Assembly: GCA_946478975.1 (NCBI GenBank)
Contig: CAMLEO010000061.1
Location: 1 to 27,748, forward strand
Direction of reading: 5' to 3'
Source: an uncultured Steroidobacter sp.
GTDB taxonomy: Bacteria > Pseudomonadota > Gammaproteobacteria > Steroidobacterales > Steroidobacteraceae
Length of the DNA: 27,748 nucleotides
Shown: piece after piece, positions 3,837-24,484 of the stretch
Numbering within the stretch: the first letter of the stretch is position 1
How the letters are laid out: each line of letters begins with the position of its first letter
Made by a program: the position numbers and the translations under genes
The notes under the pieces: generated by a model
What the model was told of the DNA's origin: nothing
Databases searched by the model: none
Seen by the model: only the letters and a program-made list of their open reading frames with translations

Positions 3837-5432
3837 TCACGCATGAGATTTGATCAGAGTCGCCGCCTTCTCGGCGATCATGATCGTGGGCGCATTGGTA
3901 TTGCCGCTGACGATCTTGGGCATGACCGAAGCGTCCACCACCCGCAGGCCGGCAACTCCCCGGACGCGCAGCGTATCGTCGACGACGGCGGTTTTGCCCG
4001 AGCCCATGCGACACGTTCCGACCGGGTGATAAACCGTTTCCGCCTTGCGTCGAATGAAGCTCGTCAGTGCGCCATCGCTGTCGTCGCTCGTGCCAGGGAA
4101 TATTTCTTCGCCGCGAAACTCGTCGAACGCAGATGAGCGCAGTATCTCCCGCGACAGGCGCACGGCTTCCAGCAGCACTTCCATGTCATGAGCATCTTGC
4201 AGGTAATTGGCGAAGATCAGCGGCGCATCCTCGGCCCGATTGGAGCGCAAGCGAATGCGGCCGCGGCTGCGCGGTTGAAGATGACAGGCATGCAGCGTGA
4301 AGCCGTGGCCGGGCAGACGATTGCGTCCATGATCGTCGAGCTGGGCCGGCACGAAGTGCATCTGGATGTCCGGCCGGCCAGGCACCGCATGAGAGCTGCA
4401 GGCGAACGCACCTGCCTCGGCGATATTCGATACGCCGGCACCGCGACGTTGCAGCCAGTACTGCAACAGGACTTTCAACTCTTGCAGCGGATTGAAGTCG
4501 TAGGTGATCGGCCGCGTGCTTTTATATAACGTGCACACGTCCAGATGATCCTGAAGGTTTTCGCCCACTGCGGGTTGATCGACGATCACCGGAATTTCGT
4601 GACTGCGCAGATGATCCGCCGGGCCGATGCCGGACAACATCAACACTTGCGGCGAGTTGACCGCCCCGGCGCTCAACAGCACTTCGCCGTCGCAGTAGGC
4701 GGTGTGAGTTCTGGAACCGACGCGATAGCTCACACCGATCGCACGGCCGTGCTCGATCAGCACGCGTTCGACCAGCGCATTCGTTGCAACGGAGAGATTC
4801 GCTCGTTGGCGTGCGCCGTTTAGATAAGACACAGCGCTGCAGCGCCTGCCGGCCTGCTGTGTGACTTGATAGTAGCCGGCGCCTTCCTGTCGCTCGCCGT
4901 TGAAGTCATCGTTGCGCGGCAAGCCGCTGGCCACTGCAGCCGATACAAATGTATCGGTGAGGGGATTACGGAAACGCAGGTCTTCGACCCAGAGCGGGCC
5001 GCTGTCGCCGTGATACATGGACGCGCCGTGTTGCTGGTGCTCGGCTTTGCGAAAGTACGGCAGCACGTCGTCGTAGCCCCAGCCGACCGCGCCGTCGCGC
5101 AGCCAGTCGTCGTAATCTTCGGGCTGGCCACGGATGTAACACATCGCGTTGATCGAGCTGCAGCCGCCGAGGACTTTGCCACGAGGCCAATACAGCCTGC
5201 GGTTGTCGAGCTGCGGCTCGGGCTCGGTGTGATAGTTCCAGTTGATGCGACGGTTGTGGACCAGCTGCGCAAGTCCCGCCGGCATATGGATGAAGGGGCT
5301 CGAATCGCGTCCGCCGGCTTCGAGCAGCAGTACGCGACGATACGAATCCTGCGAGAGCCGCCGCGCCAGCACGCAACCGGCGGAGCCGGCGCCGATGATG
5401 ATGAAATCGTAGCTGTTGAGCGCTGAGGACAT
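3837..5432 (-). CDS. GMC-family FAD-dependent alcohol oxidoreductase
   Basis: The 531-residue protein is a glucose-methanol-choline oxidoreductase. The FAD-binding GAGSAG motif is at residues 14-19, the GMC signature WPRGKVLGGCSSINAM is near residue 85, and the C-terminal catalytic pair is HPVGTCRMG (His469) with Asn in GNTNAPT (about 511). Members oxidise primary alcohols, choline or sugars; AlkJ-type enzymes oxidise medium and long-chain fatty alcohols to aldehydes at the membrane. It starts eight bases after the FFLEELY gene, the last gene of a minus-strand run that includes FadD, a lipase and a wax ester synthase. That context favours a long-chain fatty alcohol as substrate, which is inference. 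Choline dehydrogenase is the main alternative, but no betaine aldehyde dehydrogenase or betI is nearby. ATG at 5432 is chosen because the flavin motif follows immediately. Confidence 0.88.
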   Translation of the reverse strand: MSSALNSYDFIIIGAGSAGCVLARRLSQDSYRRVLLLEAGGRDSSPFIHMPAGLAQLVHNRRINWNYHTEPEPQLDNRRLYWPRGKVLGGCSSINAMCYIRGQPEDYDDWLRDGAVGWGYDDVLPYFRKAEHQQHGASMYHGDSGPLWVEDLRFRNPLTDTFVSAAVASGLPRNDDFNGERQEGAGYYQVTQQAGRRCSAVSYLNGARQRANLSVATNALVERVLIEHGRAIGVSYRVGSRTHTAYCDGEVLLSAGAVNSPQVLMLSGIGPADHLRSHEIPVIVDQPAVGENLQDHLDVCTLYKSTRPITYDFNPLQELKVLLQYWLQRRGAGVSNIAEAGAFACSSHAVPGRPDIQMHFVPAQLDDHGRNRLPGHGFTLHACHLQPRSRGRIRLRSNRAEDAPLIFANYLQDAHDMEVLLEAVRLSREILRSSAFDEFRGEEIFPGTSDDSDGALTSFIRRKAETVYHPVGTCRMGSGKTAVVDDTLRVRGVAGLRVVDASVMPKIVSGNTNAPTIMIAEKAATLIKSHA

Positions 5433-5440
5433 TAGGGCTC

Positions 5441-6127
5441 TCACGGCAGGCGAAAGGGATTGGCGACCCCGGCGATGAGTCGATGCATGATGTCGGTCTC
5501 GCGCTGCTCGATGATCTTCAGCAGTGCTTCGGCGCCCTGCATTTGTTTGAATGCGCGGTAACCGCGTTCGAGAAACTGTTGCAGGTCCGTGACGCCGAGC
5601 AGCCGGGCGGGAACGCGAGCGATGCGCAGCGCCGTACCCAGCGCCGGAATGTCGATGAGCGAGGCAAGGTCGTGGCCCGCGGCAAGAATGAGATCGATCT
5701 GCCGGCGTCGATCGTTGTAACGGCCGGCACGGCGATAAGCGGCGGGATAGGTCTCGAAGCCAGGCTCCGCCCCCTGCAACGCTTCGACCATGTCGACATC
5801 GAGTGCTTCCGACAGCAGCTCCAGTTCTAAAGCACCGCCGACAGCATCTAATGCTCGTGCGGGCAACAGCCGCGCCCATTGATCGAGTACTTTGCGCAGG
5901 TCTCGGTCGCGCTGGCTGTGATCGTGCGGGCCGTAAAGATCGTCGACGAAGAAGTCGAGCGCGGCCCGATATCTGGGCTGCGAGGCACAGTCGGCGTAAG
6001 TCGCGCGCAATCGTTCGACCTGGAATCGTTGCAAAGCCCGCAGGCGCTCGCGTCGCTCGGGGTCGCGATCGATGCGGGCCCGTTGCTGCGAAATCGACTC
6101 AATGATCCGCTGTGCCGGTTGCGCCAT
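5441..6127 (-). CDS. FFLEELY-motif conserved protein
   Basis: The 228-residue, mostly helical protein contains LDFFVDDLYGPHDHSQRD near residues 56-73, a variant of the FFLEELYGP motif for which this family is named. No signal peptide or membrane segment is visible and the protein is rich in arginine and leucine. The biochemical role of the family is unknown to me. Its start overlaps the end of fadD by 29 bases and its stop is eight bases from the GMC gene, so it is almost certainly translated from the same transcript as both. Its place between an acyl-CoA synthetase and a likely alcohol oxidase in a neutral-lipid locus hints at a job in fatty acid or lipid-body metabolism, but nothing in the sequence itself proves this. 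Confidence 0.8.
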   Translation of the reverse strand: MAQPAQRIIESISQQRARIDRDPERRERLRALQRFQVERLRATYADCASQPRYRAALDFFVDDLYGPHDHSQRDRDLRKVLDQWARLLPARALDAVGGALELELLSEALDVDMVEALQGAEPGFETYPAAYRRAGRYNDRRRQIDLILAAGHDLASLIDIPALGTALRIARVPARLLGVTDLQQFLERGYRAFKQMQGAEALLKIIEQRETDIMHRLIAGVANPFRLP

Positions 6128-7790
6128 GAGATTCCTTGCCTGCGTCGTCGAGCAGCGCCCGGCGCAGAATCTTGCCGATGTTGGTCTTCGGCAGGGTGGG
6201 GCGGAACTCGACGTACTTCGGCACCTTGTACGGCGTGAGCCGCTCGCGACAGAACGCGATGATCTGCTCGGTGCTCACAGTGGTGCTGGTGACGACGAAT
6301 GCTTTCACGGCCTGGCCGGAGCGGTCGTCCGGCACGCCGATGCAGCCGGCTTCGATGATGGCTTCGTGCATGGTCAGCACCGCTTCGATTTCGTTCGGGA
6401 ATACTTTGAAGCCCGAGACGATGATCATGTCTTTCTTGCGGTCGACGATGCGAACGAAGCCCTCTTCGTCCAGCTTCGCGATGTCGCCGGTGCGCAGCCA
6501 GCCCTGCTCATCGAGGGTCAGGGCAGTTTCGGACGGCATGTTCCAATAGCCGCGCATGACTTGCGGGCCACGTACATACAATTCGCCGGCTTCTCCGACA
6601 TCGAGCTCGCGGCCGTCGTCGCGGATGGAGATTTCGGTCGAGGGCACCGGCACACCGACGCTGCCGAGGCGCGACGCTTCGGGCAGATTACAGGAAACAA
6701 CCGGCGACGCCTCGGTGAGGCCGTAGCCTTCGATGAGCGTGTTGCCGGTGACTTTGTGCCAGCGCCCGGCGACTTCCGGATGCAGCGCCATGCCGCCCGC
6801 GACCGCCAGCTTGAGCTTGGAGAAATTCACCTGCGCGAAGCGGGGGTGCTGCAGCAGTGCGTTGTACAAGGTGTTGACGCCGGTGATGATGGTGAACGGC
6901 CAACGTGCGAGCTCGGCGACGAATGCTGGAATGTCGCGCGGGTTGGTGATCAGCACGTTCAATCCACCGTGCTTGAAGAAGCACAGGCAATTGCACGTCA
7001 AGCAGAACACGTGATAGAGCGGCAGCGGTGTGATGATGACCTCGGCGCCATCGACGATATACGGCCGCCACAGCGTCGAGACCTGCTCCAGGTTCGCCAT
7101 CAAGTTGTGATGCGAGAGCATCGCGCCCTTGGCAACGCCGGTCGTGCCGCCTGTGTATTGCAGGAACGCCAGGTCGTTCGCCGAGATCGATGGCGGCGTG
7201 AACCTCATTCGTGCACCGGCGTCCAGCGCCTGGCGAAACGGTACGGCTTCCGGAAGATCGTATTCCGGCACCAGTTTTTTCAGGTGCCTCGCGGCCCAGC
7301 TGACGGCGATGCTCTTGGGAAATCGCAGCAGGTCGCCGAGGTCGGTGGTGATGACCGTGCGAACCTTGGTATTCGGCAGCACGCGCTCGACGACGTGCGC
7401 AAAATTCGCCAGCACCAGAATGCCTGTCGCACCCGAGTCGCGCAGCTGATGTTCCAACTCGCGCGGTGTGTAGAGCGGATTGGTATTGACGACCACCAGT
7501 CCCGCACGCAGAGCGCCGAACATTGCGACCGGATACTGCAGGATGTTCGGCAGCATCAACGCGAGGCGCTCACCCTTCTTGAATCCCTGCGCCATGAGCC
7601 AGGCCGCGAACGCCCGCGAGCGCTGTTCCAGCTCGGAGTACGTGAGCGTCGTTCCCCAGTTGTGAAATGCCGGCCGCGCCGCGTAGCGCGTGCACACGGA
7701 TTGAAACATGTCGACCAGCGTGGCTTGCGGATCGAGCGCGATCTCAGTGGCTGCGCCCGGCGGATAATGTTTGAGCCATGGCTTGTTCAT
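6099..7790 (-). CDS. fadD: Long-chain fatty acid--CoA ligase
   Basis: This 563-residue adenylate-forming enzyme matches FadD in length and motifs. The AMP/phosphate loop YTGGTTGVAKG is near residue 212, LIEGYGLTEASP (A5-type motif) near 355, the hinge motif DRKKDMIIVSGFKVFPNEIE near 450, and the C-terminal catalytic lysine region LPKTNIGKILRR near 545. It activates fatty acids to acyl-CoA at the inner membrane face, supplying beta-oxidation or, here, wax ester synthesis. GGGGAGC precedes the ATG at 7790 with good spacing. It lies 108 bases after the patatin gene on the same strand and overlaps the FFLEELY gene by 29 bases. Placement between a lipase and an alcohol oxidoreductase suits re-activation of fatty acids released from stored lipid. 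Confidence 0.93.
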   Translation of the reverse strand: MNKPWLKHYPPGAATEIALDPQATLVDMFQSVCTRYAARPAFHNWGTTLTYSELEQRSRAFAAWLMAQGFKKGERLALMLPNILQYPVAMFGALRAGLVVVNTNPLYTPRELEHQLRDSGATGILVLANFAHVVERVLPNTKVRTVITTDLGDLLRFPKSIAVSWAARHLKKLVPEYDLPEAVPFRQALDAGARMRFTPPSISANDLAFLQYTGGTTGVAKGAMLSHHNLMANLEQVSTLWRPYIVDGAEVIITPLPLYHVFCLTCNCLCFFKHGGLNVLITNPRDIPAFVAELARWPFTIITGVNTLYNALLQHPRFAQVNFSKLKLAVAGGMALHPEVAGRWHKVTGNTLIEGYGLTEASPVVSCNLPEASRLGSVGVPVPSTEISIRDDGRELDVGEAGELYVRGPQVMRGYWNMPSETALTLDEQGWLRTGDIAKLDEEGFVRIVDRKKDMIIVSGFKVFPNEIEAVLTMHEAIIEAGCIGVPDDRSGQAVKAFVVTSTTVSTEQIIAFCRERLTPYKVPKYVEFRPTLPKTNIGKILRRALLDDAGKESHGATGTADH

Positions 7791-7898
7791 CGCGAGCTCC
7801 CCTTAAGCTGCGATCGACTGTGGCTAAAGATAGGTCGAAACGCCGGCGCGGCGCGCTCGTGACCCTCGCGTAGACGCTCAGGGGAACTGGAAGCGGAG

Positions 7899-9116
7899 TT
7901 ATTGAGCGGCGATCCAGTGCGACAGGCGATCGAGCGCAAAATTCAAATCGGCCGTGGGCGCGGTGCGGAAGTGAGTGGCGTCGCTCGGAGCCAGCGTGCG
8001 CTGCGGATCTCGCAAACGTTCCAGGCGCAGAGAAACGCCGTGCCGTTCCAATACACCCGCCAGCGAGTCGGCGTGCGTCAACAGGTCCTCGCGAGTGCGC
8101 TGATACGCATGGCTCGCCAGGCGGTAGCGCGCCGAATAGCGGAACACATTGGTGAAGAACATGATCTCGTCGTCGCGGTCCGGCTGAAACAACAATCGGT
8201 CGCTGTGCGGAAAGCGCAGGCGGTACGCAGCCATGCCAATCTGCATGCGCGACTGGATCAGCGCCCGGAATGTTTGATTCATGACGGTGATGAAACCGCC
8301 GTCGGCCAGGTCGTTGTAACGAGGATGATGATGCGTGCGCGAGCCGGAGAATGTCACCAGCGGGTTCACGGTGATCAACAGATCCGCGCCGCTTTCGAGC
8401 GCGAGCGATGCATGCGCCGTACGCAGCAATGCGCCATCCACGAGTGTGCGGCCGCCGATGCGGACTGGCGTGTACAGACCAGGAAGTGCAGTGCTGGCCC
8501 GGATGGCTTCGGAGATCGGCACCCGATCCAGGCCGGGCTCGCCGAAGCGCACTTCCTCGCCGCTGTTCAGATCGGTGGCGATGATCCGCAGCAGCGGGCG
8601 CAGTCGGCGAAAATCATTGCTGCGTCCCGGACCGCTGAGCAAGCCGCGCAGATACTCCTCGAACGGGCGATTGTCGAACACGCCCGTGGGAATCGCTTCG
8701 GTGAGCGGGCTCGAGATCGAGGCCCAGTTTTGACCGAACGGATCTTTGGAAATATTTCTAACGACGCGCGCCAGCAGCGATGGCACGCGCAGCGCACGCC
8801 GACAGTATTCGTCGAACGCCGGACGCATGAGCATGCCGGGCGAAAGCGGATATTCCTCCGAACCATTGTCCAGAAAGAACAGCCGCACCATCTGCGCCGT
8901 ATCGATGCCGTTGGCCAGCCCGGCGCTGATGATGGCGCCGGAGCTCACGCCGATATATGCATGCAGTTGCGTGAGATCCAGGCCGTCGGTGCAGTCGGCC
9001 AGCGCATGCAGGCAGCCGAGTTGATAGAACGCTCCCAACGGCCCGCCGCCAGCCAGTGCCAAAGCGATGCGCCGGCGCGTGCGTCGCTTTCTGGCGGCGG
9101 GTTCGACCTGCAGCAT
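7899..9116 (-). CDS. Patatin-like phospholipase/lipase
   Basis: The 405-residue protein has the complete patatin catalytic set: oxyanion-hole GGGPLG near residue 23, nucleophile-elbow GVSSG (Ser in GxSxG) near residue 56, and the aspartate of the Ser-Asp dyad in VDGAL near residue 227. Patatins hydrolyse acyl esters of phospholipids or neutral lipids. There is no signal peptide; the N-terminus is short and basic (RKRRTRRR), so it should act in the cytosol, possibly at a membrane or lipid-body surface. It starts nine bases after the phasin gene, which suggests an operon with phasin upstream and fadD downstream. A role in mobilising wax ester or triacylglycerol inclusions, or intracellular polyhydroxyalkanoate-associated lipid, is inferred from neighbours. 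A phospholipase role is the alternative. Confidence 0.9.
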   Translation of the reverse strand: MLQVEPAARKRRTRRRIALALAGGGPLGAFYQLGCLHALADCTDGLDLTQLHAYIGVSSGAIISAGLANGIDTAQMVRLFFLDNGSEEYPLSPGMLMRPAFDEYCRRALRVPSLLARVVRNISKDPFGQNWASISSPLTEAIPTGVFDNRPFEEYLRGLLSGPGRSNDFRRLRPLLRIIATDLNSGEEVRFGEPGLDRVPISEAIRASTALPGLYTPVRIGGRTLVDGALLRTAHASLALESGADLLITVNPLVTFSGSRTHHHPRYNDLADGGFITVMNQTFRALIQSRMQIGMAAYRLRFPHSDRLLFQPDRDDEIMFFTNVFRYSARYRLASHAYQRTREDLLTHADSLAGVLERHGVSLRLERLRDPQRTLAPSDATHFRTAPTADLNFALDRLSHWIAAQ

Positions 9117-9125
9117 GGGCGCCGC

Positions 9126-9629
9126 TCAGACCGCAGCGCCTTCCTGGTTGGTAGGCGCCGCTGGCGTCGATCCCTTGCGCCCGGCGTTGCCGCTCGACTT
9201 GGCTTGCGTAAGGGCCTGCACCGAGCGGTTCAGCTCTTTGACCTTGCGCGACAATGCATCGATCTCGTTCGAAGTCGGCACACCGAGCTGTTGTAACGCT
9301 TTGAGCACGCGTGCTTGCAGAATGCCTTCGAGGTTGTCGATGGTTTCTGTCGCCTTGCCACGCACGCCAGCGGTGCGCTCATCGAACTGCGCACGCAGTT
9401 GCTTCCACGCATCGGCGGTGCGCTCCTGCACGTTCTCGCGCTGCCGCTCCTGGAACTCGCTGCCTTCTGCGACCAGTGTTTGAAACAGCTTCGGGCCTTC
9501 CTGCTGAGCCCGTGCGACGGCACCGAGGCCGGCCAGCCAGATCTGTTGTCCCGTGTCGATCACGCTCGCGAGCGCACCCGCCGCTTGAGTGGACGCGCGC
9601 TTGCCCTTGCTCTTTTTTCGAGTAGCCAT
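9126..9629 (-). CDS. Phasin-family granule-associated protein
   Basis: This 167-residue protein has the layout of PhaI/PhaF-type phasins: a lysine-rich start (ATRKKSKGKR), the WLAGLGAVARAQQEGPKLF amphipathic segment at residues 31-49, a long heptad-like helix to about residue 145 ending in a leucine-zipper-like stretch, and an Ala/Pro/Gly-rich tail. Phasins coat hydrophobic storage granules and control their size; most are known from polyhydroxyalkanoate granules. No PHA synthase or depolymerase is in the window, whereas a WS/DGAT gene lies 82 bases upstream and a lipase nine bases downstream, so this one may coat wax ester or triacylglycerol bodies. That is inference. A strong GGAGG site precedes the ATG. 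Both PHA and neutral-lipid roles remain possible. Confidence 0.88.
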   Translation of the reverse strand: MATRKKSKGKRASTQAAGALASVIDTGQQIWLAGLGAVARAQQEGPKLFQTLVAEGSEFQERQRENVQERTADAWKQLRAQFDERTAGVRGKATETIDNLEGILQARVLKALQQLGVPTSNEIDALSRKVKELNRSVQALTQAKSSGNAGRKGSTPAAPTNQEGAAV

Positions 9630-9711
9630 ACTTGATCCTCCGGAGAATATGATCCAAAGCGAGTGTGCGAGCGCTGCCGGGATCGAAGGTATAGCGAAAT
9701 CCCACGGGTGC

Positions 9712-11097
9712 TTACGGACTGGTCGCTGCAGCGAGCTTTGCGGCTGCCGGAATTCCGGCGAGCGCTTGTAACAACAGATGTTCGAACTCGCCGACGAACC
9801 GAGCGGTGATGTGTTCGGGATGCGGAATCAGCTGGCGATCGGCGATCACGCCGAAATGGACGAGCCCGTTGTATGTCAGCAGGCTCACGCCGACGCCGAT
9901 GCTGCCGGCCTGCGGCACCCAGAAAAACTGCCGCTCGATGCGCACGCCGGCGACATAGAGCGGTTCGGGCGGGCCGGGAACGTTCGAGATCACCGCGCTC
10001 GCTTTGGTTGTGAACAATTCGATCGCCTGCTGCTCGACCACGCCAGGTAACAACCCCATGGCGGTCAGCAGCCAGAACGCGACCAGGGCCTGCGAGGAAT
10101 GTTTCAGCGCTTCCATATCGCGATGCACGGCGTACAGGCGGGCGAGTGGATGACGCTCACCGACCGGCAGGCTGGCGAATACCAGGCCGAATTCATTGCC
10201 GAGCCGCGGCGCTTCATCCGGCGGACGCAGGTTCACCGGCACGAGCGCTTTGAGCGTCATCGAGTCGATCGCGGTGCCTCGAGCTTCCAGATACGAGCCG
10301 AGCGCACCGGCCACGGTCGCGAGCAGCACGTCGTTGATGGAAACACCCAGCGCATGCGCGACGGTTCTTACTTCTGCGAAAGACAACGGCTCCGCCCACG
10401 ACACTTGTTTATGCTGGCTCAAGGGCCCTTTCAAGGCCGTCGTCGGGTCCTGTGGCAACAACGCGATCTTCGCGAGCTCGCGCGTCGCATCGGCCGCCCG
10501 TTCGACCATCGCAGCGGCCTGTGTCGGATGAGCGAGGCTTTGCAAAGACGTACTCACAACCTGGGCAGTTGTTTCAAGTGCGAACTGCACGAGATTGCTC
10601 GTATGCTCGCTCGGCGGCAACGGGGCAGGTGAATCGTCCCGGTCAGTACTGGTTAGAGACAGCATCACGCGCATCAGCGCAACGCCATCGGCGTAGCAGT
10701 GATGCACGCGCCCGATGATGGCGCTGCCTGTGCCGAAATGTTCGACCACATGGAATTGCCACAGCGGTCGCGCCGGGTCGAGCGGCGTGCTGGCGAGCTT
10801 GCTGGCAGCAGCTTGCAACTGAGCCTCGCCCGCTCGCGGCGGCAGCTTCAGGCGGCGCAGATGGGCATCGAGCTTGAAATGTTTATCGCGCTGCCAGTGG
10901 CCGCCGCCGAGCGCGTCGGTCACCGGCCGGTCCAGGAAACGTTCGAACTTCAACAACCGCTGTGCCAGCACTCGTTTCAGCCGCGCATGCGACAGCGGCC
11001 CGGCCAGAATCAAAACAGCCACGATCACCATTGGATTGGTCGGGCGGTCCATGCGCAGCCATGCCAGATCCACCGGGCTGATCGATTCGCCAGACAT
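9712..11097 (-). CDS. Wax ester synthase / acyl-CoA:diacylglycerol acyltransferase (WS/DGAT)
   Basis: The 461-residue protein is a bifunctional WS/DGAT. The catalytic HHxxxDG motif reads HHCYADG at residues 132-138, preceded by the PLW motif (111-113); the NDVLL motif near residue 255 and SNVPGPPEPLYVAG near 375 are also family hallmarks. The second histidine is the base that activates a fatty alcohol or diacylglycerol for acylation by acyl-CoA, giving wax ester or triacylglycerol at the inner face of the cytoplasmic membrane. AAGGAG lies about ten bases before the ATG. It is divergent from the fatty acyl-CoA reductase gene, with a 126-base gap, and is followed on its own strand by phasin, patatin and fadD. 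The adjacent alcohol-forming reductase favours wax ester as the main product. Confidence 0.94.
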   Translation of the reverse strand: MSGESISPVDLAWLRMDRPTNPMVIVAVLILAGPLSHARLKRVLAQRLLKFERFLDRPVTDALGGGHWQRDKHFKLDAHLRRLKLPPRAGEAQLQAAASKLASTPLDPARPLWQFHVVEHFGTGSAIIGRVHHCYADGVALMRVMLSLTSTDRDDSPAPLPPSEHTSNLVQFALETTAQVVSTSLQSLAHPTQAAAMVERAADATRELAKIALLPQDPTTALKGPLSQHKQVSWAEPLSFAEVRTVAHALGVSINDVLLATVAGALGSYLEARGTAIDSMTLKALVPVNLRPPDEAPRLGNEFGLVFASLPVGERHPLARLYAVHRDMEALKHSSQALVAFWLLTAMGLLPGVVEQQAIELFTTKASAVISNVPGPPEPLYVAGVRIERQFFWVPQAGSIGVGVSLLTYNGLVHFGVIADRQLIPHPEHITARFVGEFEHLLLQALAGIPAAAKLAAATSP

Positions 11098-11223
11098 TAC
11101 ATGCGGCTCCTTGATGAGCGCATGGAACTGCCAACGCGCCTGCGCTGTAAACCGCGTGTGCCCCTGAGCGGTTACGGGCTACTCCCGATGTTTGAATGGC
11201 TGCGGCGCTCTTAGCCTGCTCGC
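11098..11223. promoter_or_regulatory. Divergent control region of WS/DGAT and acyl-CoA reductase
   Basis: A 126-base gap lies between the two divergent wax ester genes and must drive both, unless other promoters exist. On the plus strand TGGAAC (11123-11128) and TGTAAA (11146-11151) are 17 bases apart, a weak sigma-70-like pair. I see no long dyad. On the minus strand the WS/DGAT ribosome-binding site AAGGAG lies at its edge. The plus-strand gene has only a poor site before its ATG. Confidence 0.35.
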
Positions 11224-13206
11224 ATGGCTTGTTTCGTCACCGGCGCCACAGGTTTTATCGGCCGTTACCTGGTCCGGGAGCTGTTGTCGCGCGTGCCGGG
11301 GCCCATCTATGTGCTGGCCCGCAAATCCGCCTCGCAAAAGTTGGACGAGCTGCGGCAGTGGTGGGGGCCTGCGGCTGAGCGAGTGATCGCGATCGACGGC
11401 GATTTGCGGGAACCGGAGCTGGGCGTCTCAGCCGGCGACCGGGCCCGGATCGGCGCGCCCATCGATCATTTCTTTCATCTCGGTGCGCTCTACGATATCG
11501 ACGCGGACAGCGAGGAATTACTGCGCGCCAACGTCGACGGCACGCGCCACGCACTCGAATTCGCTCGGGCGATGAGCACGGGCCATTTCCATCATGTCAG
11601 CTCGATTGCGTCCGCCGGCCTATATGACGGCATGTTCACTGAAGATATGTTCGAAGAGGCGTGTCATCTCGAACATCCTTACTTTCGCACCAAGCACGAT
11701 TCCGAGGCACTGGTGCGACAGCAGAACCACGTGCCGTGGCGCATTTATCGGCCGGGCATGGTGATCGGCGACTCGCGCACCGGGCACATCACCAAAGTCG
11801 ACGGTCCGTATTATTTCTTCAAGGCGCTGCAGATCCTGCGGCGTCACGTGCCGGCCTGGCTGCCGACGATCGGGTTGGAAGGCGGCTACGTCAACCTGGT
11901 GCCGGTGGATTACGTGGCCGGGGCGCTGGCGCATCTGTCGCAGCTGCCGGATCAGGATTTTCGTTGCTTTCATCTCACCGATCCGCAGCCGCGTCATGCC
12001 GGCGAAGTGTTGAATCTGTTCGCACGCGCCGGGCACGCACCGTCGATGGGATTGCGTGTCGACACCGAGTTGCTGCGCACTCTGCCATTCGACTTGTCCT
12101 CGGTGATCGAGAGTTACGAGCCGGTGCGGGCGATCGTGAACCAGGTGCTCGACGACCTGCAGCTGCCACGCAGCGTGCTCACGTTCATCAACATGCCGAC
12201 GCTGTTCGACAACCGACGCACGCGTACGCTGCTACAGGGCAGTGGAGTCACTCTGCCGCGGCTCGAAGAATACGGCTGGCGAATCTGGGACTACTGGGAA
12301 CGTCACCTCGACCCCGATCTCACGCTCGACCGCAGCCTAGCAACCCGGGTGGCGAACAAACGAGTGCTGATCACCGGCGGCAGTTCGGGCATCGGCAGAG
12401 CGACTGCGCTCCGGCTGGCGGATGCGGGCGCGAAAATCATCATCGTGGCTAGGGATGCCCAGCGGCTGGCCGAAACTCAAGCGGAGATTCGCAAGCGCGG
12501 ACACGCGGCTCACACCTACGTTTGTGACATCACCGACGACGCTGCGTGCGATGCGTTCATTCAACGGCTGACCGCCGATCACTGCGGCGTGGATATTCTG
12601 ATCAATAACGCCGGCCATTCGATTCGACGTTCGATCGCGGCGTCCTGCCAGCGCCTGCACGATTTCGAGCGCTTGATGAAGCTGAACTACTTCGCGGCCG
12701 TGCGCCTGACGCTCGCGTTGCTGCCGGGAATGGAGGCGCGAGGCAGCGGGCAGGTGGTCGTGATCTCGTCCATCGGCGTTCTGAGCAACGCGCCCAGATT
12801 CTCTGCTTACGCGGCCTCCAAAGCCGCCATCGAAACATTCGCGCGGTGTGCGGCCTCGGAGTATCGGGATCGCGGCGTGCGATTCAGCGTGATCAATATG
12901 CCGTTGGTTCGAACACGCATGATTGCGCCGACCACTGCGTACACCAAGCTGCCCGCGTTATCGCCGGAGCAAGCAGCAGAGCTGGTGGTGGACGCCATCG
13001 TCCATCAAGCGCCCCGCGTGGCGAGCCGTTTGGGAACGTTCGCGAGAATGCTGGAGCTGTTCGCACCCAGAATTGCCGACACCATCAATAGTGCTGCGTT
13101 CCGAATGTTTCCTGATTCAGCGGCGGCGTTGGGCACAACCGTGGAAACGCCGCCAAGCGACGAGGCGATCGCCTTCGCGCGAGTCATTCATGGTCTGCAT
13201 TGGTAG
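11224..13206 (+). CDS. Two-domain alcohol-forming fatty acyl-CoA reductase
   Basis: The 660-residue protein fuses two short-chain dehydrogenase-like domains. Domain 1 (about 1-370) has TGATGFIG at residues 6-13, the serine-bearing HVSSIASAG, and the catalytic YFRTK at 153-157. Domain 2 (about 376-660) has GGSSGIG, NNAG, ISSIGV and YAASK at 529-533. Length, order and several long stretches (IDHFFHL, VDGPYYFFK, IWDYWERHLDPDL, MPLVRTRMIAPT) match from memory the ~660-aa Marinobacter alcohol-forming reductases, and domain 2 closely resembles Acinetobacter Acr1. Such enzymes reduce long-chain acyl-CoA or acyl-ACP to fatty alcohol with NADPH, the aldehyde staying as an intermediate. It is divergent from WS/DGAT, so its alcohol product has an adjacent consumer. 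An in-frame TAG just upstream fixes ATG 11224. The 3' end overlaps the convergent gene by 23 bases. Confidence 0.93.
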   Translation: MACFVTGATGFIGRYLVRELLSRVPGPIYVLARKSASQKLDELRQWWGPAAERVIAIDGDLREPELGVSAGDRARIGAPIDHFFHLGALYDIDADSEELLRANVDGTRHALEFARAMSTGHFHHVSSIASAGLYDGMFTEDMFEEACHLEHPYFRTKHDSEALVRQQNHVPWRIYRPGMVIGDSRTGHITKVDGPYYFFKALQILRRHVPAWLPTIGLEGGYVNLVPVDYVAGALAHLSQLPDQDFRCFHLTDPQPRHAGEVLNLFARAGHAPSMGLRVDTELLRTLPFDLSSVIESYEPVRAIVNQVLDDLQLPRSVLTFINMPTLFDNRRTRTLLQGSGVTLPRLEEYGWRIWDYWERHLDPDLTLDRSLATRVANKRVLITGGSSGIGRATALRLADAGAKIIIVARDAQRLAETQAEIRKRGHAAHTYVCDITDDAACDAFIQRLTADHCGVDILINNAGHSIRRSIAASCQRLHDFERLMKLNYFAAVRLTLALLPGMEARGSGQVVVISSIGVLSNAPRFSAYAASKAAIETFARCAASEYRDRGVRFSVINMPLVRTRMIAPTTAYTKLPALSPEQAAELVVDAIVHQAPRVASRLGTFARMLELFAPRIADTINSAAFRMFPDSAAALGTTVETPPSDEAIAFARVIHGLHW

Positions 13207-13996
13207 GCCGCGGTTCGAAACCCGGCAGGCGGTCGAGCTGAATGCGGTAGACGAACAGATTGTCTCGCGCCGGCCACGGCGTCCAGGTCTCGTCACCGAT
13301 CACTTGAATCCCATGCACGCCGAGCTTGCCCAGGTCCGTCAGCGACAGGTCCCAGCCCGCATAGTCGTGATCGTTCGCCAGCAGCTCCTGTTCGAACAAA
13401 TGGCCGAGCACGGTGATTCGCGCGTCGACGCCGGTGCGGGCGAAGAACGCTGTTTCGCGCTTGATCAACTCCAGTCGCGAGGCCTCCAGCTCCTGGATTA
13501 AACGTTCTCGCGGATGCTCGGCGAGCACGGCGTCGCGTGCGTCTCGTTCCAGCGTTCCGAGCATGTCGTCGAGCAGATGTTCGAGCTCGGGCCGGTCGAT
13601 CGGCTGCGTGACGCCGCCGTGCCACATCAGCGAAGCGTGCGGGGTGAGCCGCTTGTTGCGTCCGGCAAGAAACACGTAGTTGGCGCAGCTGGAGTAACAA
13701 TAGGTGTCGATTTGCACATCCAGCTCGTTGTCGATCATCCAGTTGCCGAGCTGCATGGCCGCAGCAGCACCGCCGCCGTAGCTTTCGATCACGAGGGCAG
13801 TGGGTTTCGGCGACGCCTCCTGGTACAGATCGAATACTCCTTGATTCGCTTCTGACGTGATCAGTCCCTGGTATTCGATGCAGCAGTCGGTGAGCCGGAT
13901 CTTGGTGACGATCCTCACGTCGGTCGATTCGGCGTGCGCGGCCGGTGCGAGCACCGGGAGCAACAGCACCCATGCGAGCACGCCCTTGATATCCAT
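13184..13996 (-). CDS. Exported ClpP/SppA-fold protein, putative serine peptidase
   Basis: The 270-residue protein starts with a signal peptide (hydrophobic LAWVLLLPVLAPAAHA, likely cut after AHA near residue 22), so it should be periplasmic. The core resembles the ClpP/crotonase fold: ALVIESYGGGAAAAMQLGNW near residue 67 is like the glycine-rich oxyanion strand, CYSSCANYVFLAG near 98 resembles the nucleophile-serine helix start, and SLMWHGG near 121 could supply the histidine. Two cysteines flank the candidate serine and could form a disulfide in the periplasm. Family name and substrate are unknown to me. It is convergent with the acyl-CoA reductase gene, overlapping it by 23 bases, and divergent from the nucleotidyltransferase operon. 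A non-catalytic relative of SppA is the alternative. Confidence 0.7.
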   Translation of the reverse strand: MDIKGVLAWVLLLPVLAPAAHAESTDVRIVTKIRLTDCCIEYQGLITSEANQGVFDLYQEASPKPTALVIESYGGGAAAAMQLGNWMIDNELDVQIDTYCYSSCANYVFLAGRNKRLTPHASLMWHGGVTQPIDRPELEHLLDDMLGTLERDARDAVLAEHPRERLIQELEASRLELIKRETAFFARTGVDARITVLGHLFEQELLANDHDYAGWDLSLTDLGKLGVHGIQVIGDETWTPWPARDNLFVYRIQLDRLPGFEPRPTNADHE

Positions 13997-14175
13997 GGTC
14001 TTACCTCGCAGGTCGTTGCCTGGGGCCGATACTCTGAGCCGCGGCCTGCGGCGCAGCCAGCAGCGAACTCACGCAGCCATTCCGGTGTACTACGTAATGT
14101 CCCAGGACCGTTCCGAGCTGTTTCCTGTCGCCGGAGATGACAGGCTCCGTCTCCAGTACCGACAGGGGACGATCA
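13997..14175. promoter_or_regulatory. Divergent intergenic region with repeated operator-like motifs
   Basis: This 179-base gap separates the exported ClpP-like gene from the nucleotidyltransferase-USP operon. It contains the motif TTCCGGTGTACTACGTA at 14080-14096 (listed separately) and an inverted repeat CCTGTC-N9-GACAGG at 14124-14144, with a third GACAGG half-site at 14161-14166 close to the ribosome-binding site. The dyad may be an operator or an mRNA leader stem. Confidence 0.4.
14080..14096 (+). promoter_or_regulatory. Candidate operator, motif A copy 1 (TTCCGGTGTACTACGTA)
   Basis: This 17-base word recurs at 25559-25575 with a single difference (T to A at the ninth base). Both copies are intergenic, in the same orientation, 77-96 bases before the first gene of an operon that contains universal stress proteins. 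The TACGTA end is palindromic. A LuxR/FixJ-type or other transcription factor site is the guess; no regulator gene is in the window. Confidence 0.45.
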
Positions 14176-15165
14176 ATGTCACAACAGCGCTGGGATACAC
14201 ACTGGGACGCCGGCCACAACTGGGCGTTGATACTGGCGGGCGGCGAGGGGACGCGGCTGCAGGCACTTACGCGACTGGCATCGGGCATCGCTGTTCCCAA
14301 GCAGTTCTGTTCATTGGGCCATAGCGGCTCGTTGCTGCACGATGCGGCTGATCGCGCGAGCCTGGTGACATCACCCGAGCGGACCGCGGTTGTGGTGTCC
14401 GAGCATCATCGCCGCTGGTGGCAGGGCCTGGATCTGGGCATTCCCGAACGCAATCTGTTCAGCCAGCCGAGCAATCGCGGCACGGCGCAAGGCATTCTGC
14501 TGCCGTTGTTGCGCATCCTGCATCGAGATCCGGAAGCGAGCTTGCTGGTGCTGCCTTCGGATCACTATGTGAGCAACGAGGCCGTGCTGGCGGACAGCCT
14601 GCGCGACGCGATGAGAGAAATATCCCTCACTCGCAACGGCATCCTGTTGCTCGGCATGTGCGCCGAGGAAGCCGATCCCGAGCTCGGTTACATCGTGTCG
14701 GAGGGGCCGACCGATGTGAGCGAGGTGCGGGATTTCGTCGAGAAGCCGGATGTGAGTACGGCGCGTGCGTTGATTGCCCGCGGCGCCGTGTGGAACTCGT
14801 TCATCTTTGCGGCCCACGGGCAAAGCCTGTTGCGTCGATTCGAGCGGACCTGTCCGGATCTGGTCGGCGAGATGCGTCACATCGTGACATCTGTTCCTGT
14901 TTCGGCGCAGCCGGCGAGACTCGCCGATCTGTACGCGCGTTCGCCGAGCGTCGATTTCTCACGTGACATTCTGCAGCGCTCGACCGCTGGACTGCGCGTG
15001 CTGCGAGTTCCTGCCTGCGGCTGGAGCGATCTGGGAACGCCACGCCGCGTGATCGAGACGGTCGGCCGGATCAAGTCGCAGGCGAGCGCGCCGCGTTCGA
15101 GCAATCAAAACCGCCCGGCATTCCTGAACCTGGCGGGCCGCGCGCCGGAATTTTTTGCCGCTTGA
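14176..15165 (+). CDS. Sugar-phosphate nucleotidyltransferase (mannose-1-phosphate guanylyltransferase-like)
   Basis: The 329-residue protein has the nucleotidyltransferase pattern of the ManC/RfbM group: LAGGEGTRL near residue 20 (nucleotide and metal binding), VPKQFCSL shortly after, LPSDHYV near 133 (metal-binding aspartate), FVEKPD near 190, WNSFIF near 208 and GWSDLGTP near 281. It should make GDP-mannose from GTP and mannose 1-phosphate in the cytosol. It lacks the isomerase domain of bifunctional ManC proteins, whose length is over 450 residues. AGGGG precedes ATG 14176; an upstream in-frame ATG (14137) would add 13 unlikely residues. It is the first gene of an apparent operon with the broken OsmC gene, a double USP and a flavodoxin. 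Another NDP-sugar product is possible. Confidence 0.82.
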   Translation: MSQQRWDTHWDAGHNWALILAGGEGTRLQALTRLASGIAVPKQFCSLGHSGSLLHDAADRASLVTSPERTAVVVSEHHRRWWQGLDLGIPERNLFSQPSNRGTAQGILLPLLRILHRDPEASLLVLPSDHYVSNEAVLADSLRDAMREISLTRNGILLLGMCAEEADPELGYIVSEGPTDVSEVRDFVEKPDVSTARALIARGAVWNSFIFAAHGQSLLRRFERTCPDLVGEMRHIVTSVPVSAQPARLADLYARSPSVDFSRDILQRSTAGLRVLRVPACGWSDLGTPRRVIETVGRIKSQASAPRSSNQNRPAFLNLAGRAPEFFAA

Positions 15166-15467: not shown

Positions 15468-16367
15468 ATGTACGGCAAAATTCTGGTCGCAGTGGATGGC
15501 AGCGAAACCTCGCTGAAGGGACTGGCCGAAGGCATCCGGCTGGCCAGAGCCGGCGGCGCACGTTTGTTACTGCTGCATGTCCTGAATGCGCTGGTGCTGG
15601 AATCCGAGATTGCCTCCACGGCTTATTACCAGGCGCTGGCGAATGAGTTTCGCGCGTCGGGTTGGAAGATTCTCGAACACGCTGCCCTGGCGGCCCGCAC
15701 CGCCGGCATTTCGTTCGAGCAGAAATTGGTAGAGAAGATTGGCGCGCACGCTGCGGATGAGATCGTCGAGCAGGCCAAGGCGTGGCACGCGGATTTGATC
15801 GTGCTTGGAACGCATGGACGCCGCGGACTGAAACGACTGGTCATGGGCAGCGACGCCGAACTGGTGCTGCGACAGGCGCCCGTACCCGTATTGTTGGTGA
15901 GGGAGGGAATCAGCATGTACAAAAAAATCCTGGTGCCGGTCGACGGCAGCCAGGCTTCGATGCTGGGCTTGAACGAGGCGGTCAAGATCGCCAAGAGCCA
16001 AGGGTCGCAGCTGCAGCTGGTGCACGTCGTCAACGAGCTGATCCTGACCGGGATGGAAACACCGGCGCTGTATGTCGACAAAGTTGCCGATGCGCTGCGC
16101 GAGGAGGGAAGAAAGATCCTTGCCAAAGCGGAGCGCGTGGTGCGCGAACAGGCGCTCGAGCCGAAGACCGTGCTGCTCGAATGTATCGGCGCCAGCGCGG
16201 CGGATTTCATCGTCGAGCAGGCCAGGCAGTCGCAAGCCGATTTGATCGTGATGGGCACGCACGGCCGTCGCGGGCTGCGCCGCCTTGCGCTCGGCAGCGA
16301 CGCGGAACTCGTGGTGCGATCCGCACCGGTGCCGGTGTTGTTGGTGCGAGCAGAGACTGCTTTCTAG
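15468..16367 (+). CDS. Tandem universal stress protein (two UspA domains)
   Basis: The 299-residue protein has two full UspA domains (residues 1-148 and 150-299). Each begins with a MYxKILVxVDGS strand and ends with the nucleotide-binding pattern GTHGRRGLKRLVMGSDAE or GTHGRRGLRRLALGSDAE, so both match the ATP-binding G-2x-G-9x-G(S/T) rule. Such cytosolic proteins support survival under hypoxia, starvation or oxidative stress. The second domain starts with an in-frame ATG at 15915 preceded by GGGAGGG, a good ribosome-binding site; the pair therefore looks like two genes fused by loss of a stop, and a separate C-terminal product of 150 residues may also be made. AGGTGG precedes the first ATG. 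It lies in the operon behind the candidate operator at 14080. Confidence 0.92.
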   Translation: MYGKILVAVDGSETSLKGLAEGIRLARAGGARLLLLHVLNALVLESEIASTAYYQALANEFRASGWKILEHAALAARTAGISFEQKLVEKIGAHAADEIVEQAKAWHADLIVLGTHGRRGLKRLVMGSDAELVLRQAPVPVLLVREGISMYKKILVPVDGSQASMLGLNEAVKIAKSQGSQLQLVHVVNELILTGMETPALYVDKVADALREEGRKILAKAERVVREQALEPKTVLLECIGASAADFIVEQARQSQADLIVMGTHGRRGLRRLALGSDAELVVRSAPVPVLLVRAETAF

Positions 16368-16407
16368 CTTAACCGCCCGTGGATTGCGCGTTATAACGAG
16401 GTGAACC

Positions 16408-16920
16408 ATGGACGCGTCGAAGTCATTGTTGATCGCTTACTACTCGCTCACGGGCAATACCGCGCGTGTGGCGACAGATCTCGCCGCTCGATTGGGAGCG
16501 GACCTGGAGAGCATCCAGGATAAAGGTCACGGCACCAGCGTTCTCGGACATTTCACTGCAGCTTTCGATGCATGGCGCAGAGCGCCGGCACACATAGGCG
16601 CGCTTCAACAGGATCCGGCGCAGTACGCGATTACAGTGATTGGAACGCCGGTGTGGACGTGGCAGATGACGCCCGCGGTGCGTGCTTATCTCAAAGAAGT
16701 CCGCGGCCGAATTCACGACGTGGCGTTCTTTGTGACTTCCGGCGACACGGATGTGCGGAAGGTCCTGCCGTCGCTCGAAGCGGAGGCAGGGATCAGATCG
16801 GTTGCGTCAGCAGGCTTCAACGCTCACGAGCTCAGCGATGCCGCGACCTACGAAAAGAAGCTCGCAACGTTCGCGGACAGCATCATGAGTGCGGCACGAT
16901 CGGCGCAAAGGGTCGCGTAG
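16408..16920 (+). CDS. Flavodoxin-family protein
   Basis: This 170-residue protein has the flavodoxin fold signature: the N-terminal FMN phosphate loop YYSLTGNTARVA (residues 11-22), and GTPVWTWQMTPAVRAYL near residue 78, where the tryptophan would stack on the flavin ring. It is close in length to long-chain flavodoxins and to the flavodoxin-like proteins annotated as NAD(P)H:quinone oxidoreductase relatives. It probably binds FMN and carries electrons in the cytosol; the partner is unknown. GAGGTG lies five bases before ATG 16408. The gap to the preceding USP gene is 40 bases, so it probably ends that operon. Its stop codon falls in the loop of a strong hairpin shared with the convergent small gene. 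Confidence 0.85.
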   Translation: MDASKSLLIAYYSLTGNTARVATDLAARLGADLESIQDKGHGTSVLGHFTAAFDAWRRAPAHIGALQQDPAQYAITVIGTPVWTWQMTPAVRAYLKEVRGRIHDVAFFVTSGDTDVRKVLPSLEAEAGIRSVASAGFNAHELSDAATYEKKLATFADSIMSAARSAQRVA

Positions 16921-16930
16921 CCGCGACCCT
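16909..16930. terminator. Perfect 9-bp hairpin between convergent genes
   Basis: AGGGTCGCG (16909-16917), loop TAGC, CGCGACCCT (16922-16930) is an exact 9-base inverted repeat. The flavodoxin stop codon TAG is in the loop, and the convergent small gene ends at 16943. It should fold in transcripts from both strands and so may end both. Neither side has a run of T, so intrinsic termination is not certain; a transcript-end stabilising stem is the alternative. Confidence 0.6.
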
Positions 16931-16942
16931 GAAAGCGTTGGG

Positions 16943-17281
16943 TTACTTCGCGAGCTCGGCCGCGACGCCTTCGGCTTCTTTCGCGGCCTGCTCGTAATAT
17001 TTCGCAAGCTGCTCGCAGTGTTCGACCACGTTCGCGTAGTTCGCAGTGCCTTTGACCGGCGTACGGCCGCGGTAGAGCTGTGCGAGCTTACGATGCGATT
17101 CGGCTTTCTCACGCAGCTGAGTCGCCTCGTCTTTATATTCGACTGCGACGTCTTTGTCGCTGCGATGATCCATATCGGATTTATGCATGTGCATGGGCGG
17201 CTTGGCATCGCCGTCGGCGAACGTCACAGTTCCGAGCAGCACGGTGTTCGCCGCCAGGGCGATCAGGATGGGATGTTTCAT
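16943..17281 (-). CDS. Small exported helical protein of unknown function
   Basis: The 112-residue product starts with a signal peptide (MKHPILIALAANTVLLGTVTFA, likely cut near residue 22), then a Met/His-rich stretch PPMHMHKSDMDHRSDKD at about 26-42, then a long charged helix rich in Ala, Glu and Lys to the end. The Met/His cluster could bind metal, but this is speculation. I do not recognise the family. The ATG at 17281 is chosen because GGAGAA lies just upstream and the signal peptide begins there; an upstream extension to 17341 lacks support. It is divergent from the magnesium-type ATPase gene, with dyads in the shared control region. There is one cysteine in the mature part. Confidence 0.7.
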   Translation of the reverse strand: MKHPILIALAANTVLLGTVTFADGDAKPPMHMHKSDMDHRSDKDVAVEYKDEATQLREKAESHRKLAQLYRGRTPVKGTANYANVVEHCEQLAKYYEQAAKEAEGVAAELAK

Positions 17282-17481
17282 CGGGTTCTCCGCGGTTGAA
17301 AAACTAAGCGGCAGCTTAGTCCGCCCGCACGGCCGCCCCATTCAGGGAATGGCACCGTCGAACTGTGGTTGTCACTTAAACTCGCGATGGGTGAGAGGGC
17401 CGAGGGTCGTGCCTGGTTCACGTAACTGCCGAGTAGATCTCCCGAGTGCGCCGTCCGGTGGACGGTGCATGCTGCGATGGA
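17282..17481. promoter_or_regulatory. Divergent control region with three inverted repeats
   Basis: This 200-base gap between the small exported protein gene and the P-type ATPase gene contains three exact or near-exact dyads: ACTAAGC-GGCA-GCTTAGT at 17303-17320, CCATTC-AGG-GAATGG at 17338-17352, and TGCGCCGTCC-GGT-GGACGGTGCA at 17447-17469 (ten pairs with one G-U if RNA). The first two may be operators. The third lies 12 bases before the ATPase ATG and may be a leader-RNA stem that affects translation or transcription of this gene. Confidence 0.5.
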
Positions 17482-20010: not shown

Positions 20011-20050
20011 GGCAAACTGGGGTCGCAAGACCGGCTGAGAGGGCGGACGC

Positions 20051-21598
20051 ATGATCGATCTGGATGTCGTCAACCTGTCGCGCCTGCAGTTCGCCCTGAC
20101 GGCGATGTATCACTTTCTGTTCGTGCCGCTGACCTTGGGCCTGTCGATGATCCTGGTGATCATGGAGGCCACCTATGTCATGACCGGTAGAGTCATCTGG
20201 AAACAGATGACGCAGTTCTGGGGCGTGCTGTTCGGGATCAACTTTGCCATGGGCGTGGCCACCGGCATCACCATGGAATTCCAGTTCGGCACCAACTGGG
20301 CCTATTACTCGCATTACGTCGGCGACATCTTCGGTGCGCCGCTGGCCATCGAAGGCCTGATGGCGTTTTTTCTCGAATCCACCTTCATCGGCCTGTTTTT
20401 CTTCGGCTGGAACCGGCTGTCCAAGGTCGGGCACCTGGTCGTCACCTCGCTGGTCGCGCTCGGCTCCAGACTGTCGGCATTGTGGATCCTGATCGCCAAC
20501 GCCTGGATGCAAAACCCGGTTGGCGGCGAGTTCAATTATGAAACCATGCGCATGGAGCTCACCTCGTTCGGCGCGGTGTTTTTCAATCCGGTCGCGCAGG
20601 CCAAGTTCGTGCACACGGTGGCCGCGGGTTATGTGGTCGGCTCGGTGTTCGTTCTGGCGGTGAGCGCGTGGTATCTGCTGCGAGGAAGAAATGTCGAGAT
20701 CGCGCGTCGCTCGCTGGCCGTCGCGGCGAGCTTCGGGCTGGCGTGCTCGCTTTCAGTCGTGGTGCTGGGCGATGAGTCGGGTTACGTCGCGAGCGAAAAC
20801 CAGAAGATGAAGATCGCCGCTATCGAAGCGGCGTGGCACACGGAACCTGCGCCCGCGGGTTTCACAATTTTCGGTGTGCCGGACGTGCAGGAGCGACGCA
20901 CGCACGCCGAAGTGAAGATTCCGTGGCTGCTCGGCTTGATCGCCACCCGTTCCATCGATGGCGAAGTCGCCGGCATCAACGAACTGGTGGAGCATGCGAA
21001 GCTGCGCGTGAGCAATGGCATGCAGGCTCATGCAGCCTTGCAGAGGCTGCGAGCGAATTCAAACGATGCCGACGCCCGGGCGACGTTCGACAAACATCGC
21101 GCCGACCTCGGCTATGGATTGCTGTTGCTTCGTTATACCAACGATCCGGCGAAAGCGACCGCCGAGCAAATCGAACGCGCGGCGTGGTCGACGGTGCCGA
21201 ACGTGCCGGTGCTGTTCTGGAGCTTCCGGTTGATGGTGGCACTGGGATTCTTTTTTATTTTCATGTTTGCGGCTGGCTTCTACCTGGCGTCCCGTCATCG
21301 CTTCGATCGCAATCGCTGGTTCTTGCGGCTCGCGTTCTACAGTCTGCCGCTGCCGTGGATCGCAGCCGAGCTGGGCTGGATCGTCGCCGAGTATGGCCGG
21401 CAGCCGTGGGCGATCGACGGCATGCTGCCAACCTTCCTCGGTGTCTCCGCCACGTCGGCGTCGAACGTTTGGACGTCACTGCTCGGCTTCGTTGTTTTCT
21501 ACACCGTGCTGGCCGCTGTCGATGTTTATCTGATGCTGCGAGTGGTGCGACGAGGGCCGGATGGGCTGGGGTATTGGCCGCTCCCGCGTGAGGTTTAG
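20051..21598 (+). CDS. cydA: Cytochrome bd ubiquinol oxidase subunit I
   Basis: The 515-residue membrane protein is CydA. Haem ligands are recognisable: His21 in MYHFLFVPLTLG (the E. coli His19 position, haem b595), His in KFVHTVAAGYVVG near 196 (haem b558), and Met in FWSFRLMVALG near 395 (b558). The proton-path glutamates are in LAIEGLMAFFLEST near residue 100. The quinol-binding loop has SENQKMKIAAIEA with the conserved Lys and Glu. With CydB it oxidises ubiquinol and reduces oxygen to water with high oxygen affinity, which suits microaerobic growth. GAGAGGGCGG precedes the ATG. Only 40 bases separate it from mgtA, so it may be cotranscribed with it; I see no FNR-like box in that gap. CydB follows after two bases. 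Confidence 0.95.
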   Translation: MIDLDVVNLSRLQFALTAMYHFLFVPLTLGLSMILVIMEATYVMTGRVIWKQMTQFWGVLFGINFAMGVATGITMEFQFGTNWAYYSHYVGDIFGAPLAIEGLMAFFLESTFIGLFFFGWNRLSKVGHLVVTSLVALGSRLSALWILIANAWMQNPVGGEFNYETMRMELTSFGAVFFNPVAQAKFVHTVAAGYVVGSVFVLAVSAWYLLRGRNVEIARRSLAVAASFGLACSLSVVVLGDESGYVASENQKMKIAAIEAAWHTEPAPAGFTIFGVPDVQERRTHAEVKIPWLLGLIATRSIDGEVAGINELVEHAKLRVSNGMQAHAALQRLRANSNDADARATFDKHRADLGYGLLLLRYTNDPAKATAEQIERAAWSTVPNVPVLFWSFRLMVALGFFFIFMFAAGFYLASRHRFDRNRWFLRLAFYSLPLPWIAAELGWIVAEYGRQPWAIDGMLPTFLGVSATSASNVWTSLLGFVVFYTVLAAVDVYLMLRVVRRGPDGLGYWPLPREV

Positions 21599-21600
21599 TC

Positions 21601-22737: not shown

Positions 22738-22746
22738 GAGCATTCG

Positions 22747-22857: not shown

Positions 22858-22903
22858 CGGTGCGGCGGCGTGCGCCGACCCGAGTGTTCCCGAGACGGGT
22901 TAA

Positions 22904-22916: not shown

Positions 22917-22977
22917 TTCTTTGCCGGCGAGGCGGCGCTAGGCTGATTTGGAACTGGCCGTCAGGGAGCCGCTTTCC

Positions 22978-24463: not shown

Positions 24464-24484
24464 ATCGATACTCCTGAATATTTG

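Follow-up and report, generated by a model that had tools for sequence, protein, structure and literature searches.

The contig CAMLEO010000061.1 of an uncultured Steroidobacter sp. (assembly GCA_946478975.1), analysed here in its positions 1 to 27,748 (the whole of this stretch is referred to below as the window), carries between positions 3837 and 13206 seven adjacent genes that quite probably constitute a wax-ester storage locus. Its products would make the wax ester, coat it and release it, with the FFLEELY motif protein as a dedicated partner and, in the Steroidobacter branch, with the acyl-CoA ligase FadD and a GMC oxidoreductase serving reuse. The observations behind this reading are the identities of the genes, their motifs, order and conservation, their co-occurrence among genomes, and the presence of the phasin where no polyhydroxyalkanoate (PHA) synthase is detectable. 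We consider the conserved unit itself and its link to the FFLEELY protein to be new.

Gene content and proposed pathway

The locus consists of the following features, FAR being the fatty acyl-CoA reductase and WS/DGAT the wax ester synthase/diacylglycerol acyltransferase.

3837..5432, minus strand: GMC oxidoreductase (531 aa), proposed fatty alcohol oxidase/dehydrogenase (PF00732/PF05199)
5441..6127, minus strand: FFLEELY motif protein (228 aa), proposed lipid-body or WS/DGAT accessory protein (NF047641)
6099..7790, minus strand: FadD-type long-chain acyl-CoA ligase (PF00501/PF13193, PRK08974)
7899..9116, minus strand: patatin-like acylhydrolase, proposed wax-ester/neutral-lipid lipase (PF01734, dyad motifs)
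9126..9629, minus strand: phasin, proposed wax-body coat (PF05597)
9712..11097, minus strand: WS/DGAT acyltransferase (PF03007/PF06974, TIGR02946, HHCYADG)
11098..11223, no strand: divergent intergenic region, presumed promoter region shared by the FAR gene and the WS/DGAT gene run (conserved blocks)
11224..13206, plus strand: two-domain FAR (660 aa; NF005539/PRK07201, YxxxK sites)

The identities come from Pfam and NCBIfam profile searches of the 29 open reading frames (ORFs) scanned in the window, and catalytic motifs were found in all five enzymes. The FAR combines the NAD_binding_4 and adh_short domains (NF005539/PRK07201, 877 bits, cut-off 549) and contains GATGFIG, YFRTK, TGGSSGIG and YAASK, both of its YxxxK sites being invariant among 15 aligned sequences; with its two SDR domains, cofactor sites and YxxxK sites it is, by sequence criteria, an acyl-CoA reductase of the kind predicted to supply fatty alcohol. 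The WS/DGAT scores 413 bits against TIGR02946 (cut-off 310), possesses both PF03007 and PF06974, aligns to the solved chains 7nxg and 6chj, and reads HHCYADG at the HHxxxDG signature of its family. The phasin is assigned by PF05597 (118.9 bits, cut-off 28.8), its score against the NCBIfam model TIGR01837 being slightly below the cut-off (92.2 against 94.7 bits). The patatin has the Ser-Asp dyad (GVSSG at 56, DGA at 227), the GMC protein has HPVGTCRMG and SGNTNAP, and FadD has TGGTTGVAKG, its best NCBIfam model, PRK08974, giving 788 bits, under the cut-off of 884. An earlier note on this DNA had described seven adjacent genes on two strands, and the families, motifs and positions are as it claimed except for the literal FFLEELY motif (see below) and the start of the GMC gene: in the 680-aa ORF of the latter the first 149 residues lie over the FFLEELY gene, in a different frame, and homology begins only at about residue 157, so that M150, at position 5432, is most likely the true start.

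Six genes are on the minus strand, with gaps of 82, 9, 108, -29 and 8 nt, which would fit one transcript, while FAR diverges from them across 126 nt. The proposed course of events is as follows. FAR would reduce acyl-CoA to fatty alcohol and WS/DGAT would join the alcohol with a second acyl-CoA into wax ester, a sequence of reactions that is established for these families. The phasin would coat the wax bodies, and the patatin, accompanied in some relatives by an alpha/beta hydrolase, would free acyl groups upon carbon need; its substrate is presumably a wax ester or another neutral lipid. The FFLEELY protein could serve specifically as a partner of WS/DGAT or of the body surface. FadD, which in the Steroidobacter branch is encoded at the position that the hydrolase gene occupies in relatives, could re-activate the released fatty acid, and the GMC oxidoreductase, whose gene comes after that of FFLEELY in the window as well as in several distant relatives, could oxidise the released alcohol. 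Wax-ester synthesis by a FAR together with a WS/DGAT is described in the accessible parts of PMC8401914 and PMC3522743.

Conservation of the cluster

The nearest relatives found belong to the Steroidobacteraceae. By tblastn, Peristeroidobacter soli and the metagenome-assembled genome of Steroidobacter sp. RBC007 have the seven proteins in the same order and on the same strands, at 74-85% and 58-73% identity, respectively; all seven genes thus stand in the order of the window at these Steroidobacter and Peristeroidobacter loci (L001 and L002). The WS/DGAT is the sole match to its own family in each of three relatives (these two and Microvirga alba). At E <= 1e-20, 69 of 246 genomes from the order of Peristeroidobacter have a match to the WS/DGAT; the 24 at E <= 3.6e-91 are clear orthologs, the genome ranking next being at 4e-42. 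Together with 13 loci from a family-level sample of 90 genomes they make up 37 orthologous loci, which were compared by tblastn over regions of up to 20 kb (E <= 1e-4, minimum lengths and, in the case of FadD and GMC, 45% identity or more). Near the 24 orthologs of the order sample we found FAR at 15, phasin at 18, patatin at 15, FFLEELY at 19, GMC at 5 and FadD at 5; the respective numbers for the 13 family-sample loci, many of them clipped by contig ends, are 11, 12, 10, 5, 0 and 1. The full five-gene core (FAR, WS/DGAT, phasin, patatin, FFLEELY) was found at 16 of the 37 loci (11/24 and 5/13), and at none of 17 control loci around distant WS/DGAT paralogs, hand-picked from the match list, one per genome, where FAR, patatin and FFLEELY were never seen, the phasin twice, and FadD and GMC once each. 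Since the set recurs across genomes, it is more than a chance assembly. Content and order are thus conserved within the order, so that the lack of conservation in relatives, which the earlier note had named as a refutation, is not what is observed; the genes for synthesis, coat and lipase do form a conserved unit there, rearranged in some Alphaproteobacteria.

This unit has variable members. At 15 of the 24 order loci a protein with a weak TPR match is encoded between WS/DGAT and the phasin, on the opposite strand, and at 9 an alpha/beta hydrolase lies between patatin and FFLEELY; the branch of the window has neither, FadD occupying the position of the hydrolase. In a class-level sample, orthologs of the WS/DGAT were found in 5 of 369 genomes.

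The occurrence of FAR follows that of the WS/DGAT. It is present in 23 of 26 ortholog genomes (the 24 of the order sample plus G001 and G003), within the cluster in 17 and on another contig in six. A comparison set of 50 genomes lacking the ortholog (30 of the 45 that have distant paralogs only and 20 of the 177 without any match, taken in listed order) contains FAR in five, with no cluster partners nearby. Within the order sample the frequencies are 21/24 and 5/50 (Fisher p ~7e-11, which for related genomes is not a true probability). The WS/DGAT and FAR trees agree in many of their terminal subclades, and sequences from Alphaproteobacteria occupy corresponding positions in the two; the deeper branching differs, and several forks are unsettled.

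Alphaproteobacterial loci and the FFLEELY protein

A second class of Proteobacteria harbours the same genes. The locus L003 of Microvirga alba contains six of them, rearranged, and orthologs of the WS/DGAT in 9 of 312 genomes from the order of Microvirga and in 3 of 89 from its family, Microvirga being in both, provide 11 alphaproteobacterial loci. The most unexpected observation is that at 10 of these (the exception is L003) the gene of the uncharacterised FFLEELY protein adjoins WS/DGAT, divergently. The other partners are less constant: FAR at 4 loci, phasin at 4, patatin at 5, GMC at 5 and FadD at 3. The whole set of nine genes is present, in a different order, at L123 and L141 (the L123 GMC, 44% identical, had been missed by the filter of at least 45% identity), and at L140 the sequence ends within the cluster. 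The same content in differing orders argues for function over inherited position. A broader alphaproteobacterial sample of 385 genomes yielded the ortholog in Microvirga alone, so the unit is rare in this class.

As to the FFLEELY protein itself, the earlier note was right about the family (NF047641 / PF26621; 216.8 bits against NF047641, cut-off 55) and wrong about the literal motif: the window protein reads FFVDDLYG at this place, and FFxxDLYG is found in 36 of 42 aligned relatives. The structure model built with these 42 sequences is all-helical (mean predicted local distance difference test score 91.0, predicted template modelling score 0.86) and gave no significant match in the PDB. The family cut-off is exceeded in 11 genomes of the class sample of 369, namely in 4 of the 5 ortholog genomes and 7 of the 364 others, though three of the four ortholog genomes have the FFLEELY gene at a distance from WS/DGAT. 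In one of the seven others (G456, L100:5918-9681) FAR is divergent to an overlapping phasin-FFLEELY pair, with no WS/DGAT of the clade in the region. Apart from this phasin, the ten neighbours scanned at eight FFLEELY loci are of diverse kinds (among them UbiE, pseudouridine synthase, Na+/H+ antiporter, peroxiredoxin, GDSL lipase and acyl-CoA dehydrogenase), which indicates a family broader than wax storage. Its repeated inclusion in the recurring gene set of two bacterial classes makes the protein a candidate for a role in wax storage that can be tested.

A second FFLEELY gene, 74% identical to that of the window, is located in another region (L103) of the Peristeroidobacter genome G002. It adjoins paralogs of the window nucleotidyltransferase (14137-15165; 76%) and phosphoribosyltransferase (55% over 100 residues), a set that suggests a duplicated segment.

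A more far-reaching proposal is possible, though we would not yet call it probable: FFLEELY would be a new wax- or neutral-lipid-body protein tied to one WS/DGAT clade and its phasin, the five core genes, with the TPR-like protein, hydrolase, GMC and FadD as options, would make up a modular wax-storage unit in two proteobacterial classes, and the phasin would act on wax, not PHA.

Phasin and the proposed reuse genes

Exactly one PF05597 phasin was found in 26 of 28 genomes, and in 22 of these 26 (all except G1066, G077, G083 and G149) it is encoded beside WS/DGAT. PhaC scores above the cut-off in 5 of the 21 tested genomes whose sole phasin is that of the cluster (G003, G006, G173, G047, G212) and does not in the other 16, among them the 9.4-Mb Peristeroidobacter genome G002 (22.1 bits, cut-off 23.7). 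PhaC, which would mark a PHA-storage locus, was not found among the 29 scanned ORFs of the window either. Because the phasin is usually the only one of its genome and PhaC is below the cut-off in these 16 of 21, its most likely role is to coat wax or other neutral-lipid bodies; the coat function proposed in the earlier note agrees with the survey, by which a PHA phasin is unlikely in most of the hosts tested.

The reuse genes are well conserved where they are linked (GMC 60-65% identical to the window in L042, L043, L051 and L053; FadD 63-65% in L042 and L053). The nearest solved chains of the GMC protein by sequence are choline dehydrogenase, a chloramphenicol-inactivating oxidoreductase and two alcohol oxidases. 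With regard to a possible AlkJ-type function, the domains and both motifs are present and a long-chain alcohol is a candidate substrate. The reuse arm has a gap at the conversion of aldehyde to acid, as GMC would yield the aldehyde and FadD needs the acid; either GMC may perform both oxidations, or an enzyme encoded elsewhere may act.

Arguments against and alternative explanations

Several points weigh against a wax-ester storage locus. The wax-ester product, the transcripts and the enzyme activities are all predicted from the DNA, and WS/DGAT enzymes can also make triacylglycerol (TAG), the family being bifunctional in many hosts. Four of the 24 orthologs (L054, L057-L059) stand without any full-length partner in their neighbourhood; in 6 of the 23 genomes with FAR (G010, G045, G066, G077, G011, G025) it is on a separate contig with none of the other cluster proteins beside it; six places of the class sample outside G002 (L077-L082), which may or may not be outside the order, lack the core, one having phasin and FadD; and the full set is not seen at 9 of the 11 alphaproteobacterial loci. 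Some of the PHA synthase absences may be assembly gaps. GMC is linked at 5 and FadD at 6 of the 37 loci, some of which are clipped by contig ends, and no aldehyde dehydrogenase is among the 29 scanned ORFs; given this rare linkage and the missing enzyme, the "self-contained" reuse proposed in the earlier note is overstated. Finally, deletion of fcrA in Rhodococcus leaves the wax-ester content near wild type, according to the accessible part of PMC8401914; that overexpression of FcrA (664 aa) raises it, as the same source states, counts in favour of the storage locus.

Could the phasin, the patatin and perhaps FFLEELY serve PHA granules, with WS/DGAT and FAR adjoining them by history? PF05597 is the family of PHA-granule phasins, PhaC is above the cut-off in 9 of the 26 ortholog genomes, and PHA genes occur near some alphaproteobacterial WS/DGAT genes in the part of Galvan et al. 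(2023, PMC10351704) available to us. We regard this as highly unlikely in view of the 16 of 21 genomes mentioned above, and also because the four cluster-less orthologs (G083, G077, G025, G011) are all in PhaC-bearing genomes. That TAG or a TAG/wax mixture is the main product, FAR contributing a minor wax fraction, is less remote and still distinctly unlikely: the bifunctionality of the family, whose activities TIGR02946 does not separate, and the three of 26 ortholog genomes where no FAR was seen fit it, but the other 23 have FAR, mostly inside the cluster, and no Kennedy-pathway acyltransferase was found among the 29 scanned ORFs of the window. Rather unlikely, though the strongest of these objections, is that GMC and FadD are general genes of alcohol/alkane or fatty-acid catabolism which adjoin the storage cluster by chance. 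Their infrequent linkage and the solved relatives of GMC that act on choline and other alcohols speak for it, while the conservation of the linked copies, and the occurrence of GMC at 5/11 and of FadD at 3/11 alphaproteobacterial loci, speak for a part in the wax-ester locus.

Comparison with known systems

The Marinobacter reductase Maqu_2220 has about 661 aa. Like the present locus, the Marinobacter/Rhodococcus pathway (Maqu_2220 or FcrA with WS/DGAT) employs an acyl-CoA reductase of about 660 aa and the same chemistry of both steps (PMC8401914); here, in contrast, FAR and WS/DGAT lie next to each other, divergently, and share a conserved cluster with phasin, patatin and FFLEELY, and the accessible part of that description shows no such cluster. 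The WS/DGAT clusters from marine sediments (Galvan et al., 2023, PMC10351704; accessible text) resemble ours in having an SDR reductase, lipases, acyl-CoA ligases and, on one scaffold, a phasin near WS/DGAT in Beta- and Gammaproteobacteria, but are centred on genes of the Kennedy pathway, acyl-CoA-binding protein, beta-oxidation or PHA; patatin is not mentioned in the main text, nor FFLEELY in its section 23. PHA granule loci (PhaC, phasin, depolymerase) likewise unite a storage enzyme, a PF05597 coat and a hydrolase, whereas here a neutral-lipid synthase replaces the PHA synthase. In an archaeal wax-ester study, as far as its accessible part goes, WS/DGAT is located beside ATP synthase genes (PMC11948995). 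In the literature searched, which covers few subscription journals, we found neither a description of the present cluster, nor a link of FFLEELY to wax-ester genes, nor the word FFLEELY.

Intergenic region and surroundings

The window gap between FAR and WS/DGAT (11098-11223) has conserved blocks around GTAAA...TTACGGGCTA in common with L001 and L002, and it contains an inverted repeat, GTAAACCGC/GCGGTTAC. A different conserved element of 15 nt (consensus GGTTTGCCACGATGC, 0-2 mismatches) occurs once per FAR-WS/DGAT gap in 11 sister loci (L040, L042-L047, L050-L053) and forms an inverted repeat in L053; it is a candidate operator or promoter.

Elsewhere in the window, a protein overlapping the end of FAR (13184-13996), with no Pfam match and a weak ClpP-like NCBIfam match, is conserved beside the Peristeroidobacter cluster. 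Positions 15468-27583 encode, one after another, universal stress proteins, a flavodoxin, an Mg-type P-ATPase, a cytochrome bd oxidase, a CBS protein, a phosphofructokinase and two small cytochromes c, and resemble a microaerobic/stress island; positions 10-1556 encode a DUF3570 protein followed by an ApbE flavin transferase.

Significance

Bacterial wax esters are usually treated as a matter of two enzymes, FAR and WS/DGAT. With a coat, a lipase and an uncharacterised helical family beside these two, the conserved cluster would offer a parts list for the building and consumption of wax bodies. It also opens to direct tests what the FFLEELY family does, and what phasins do in hosts that have no PHA synthase.

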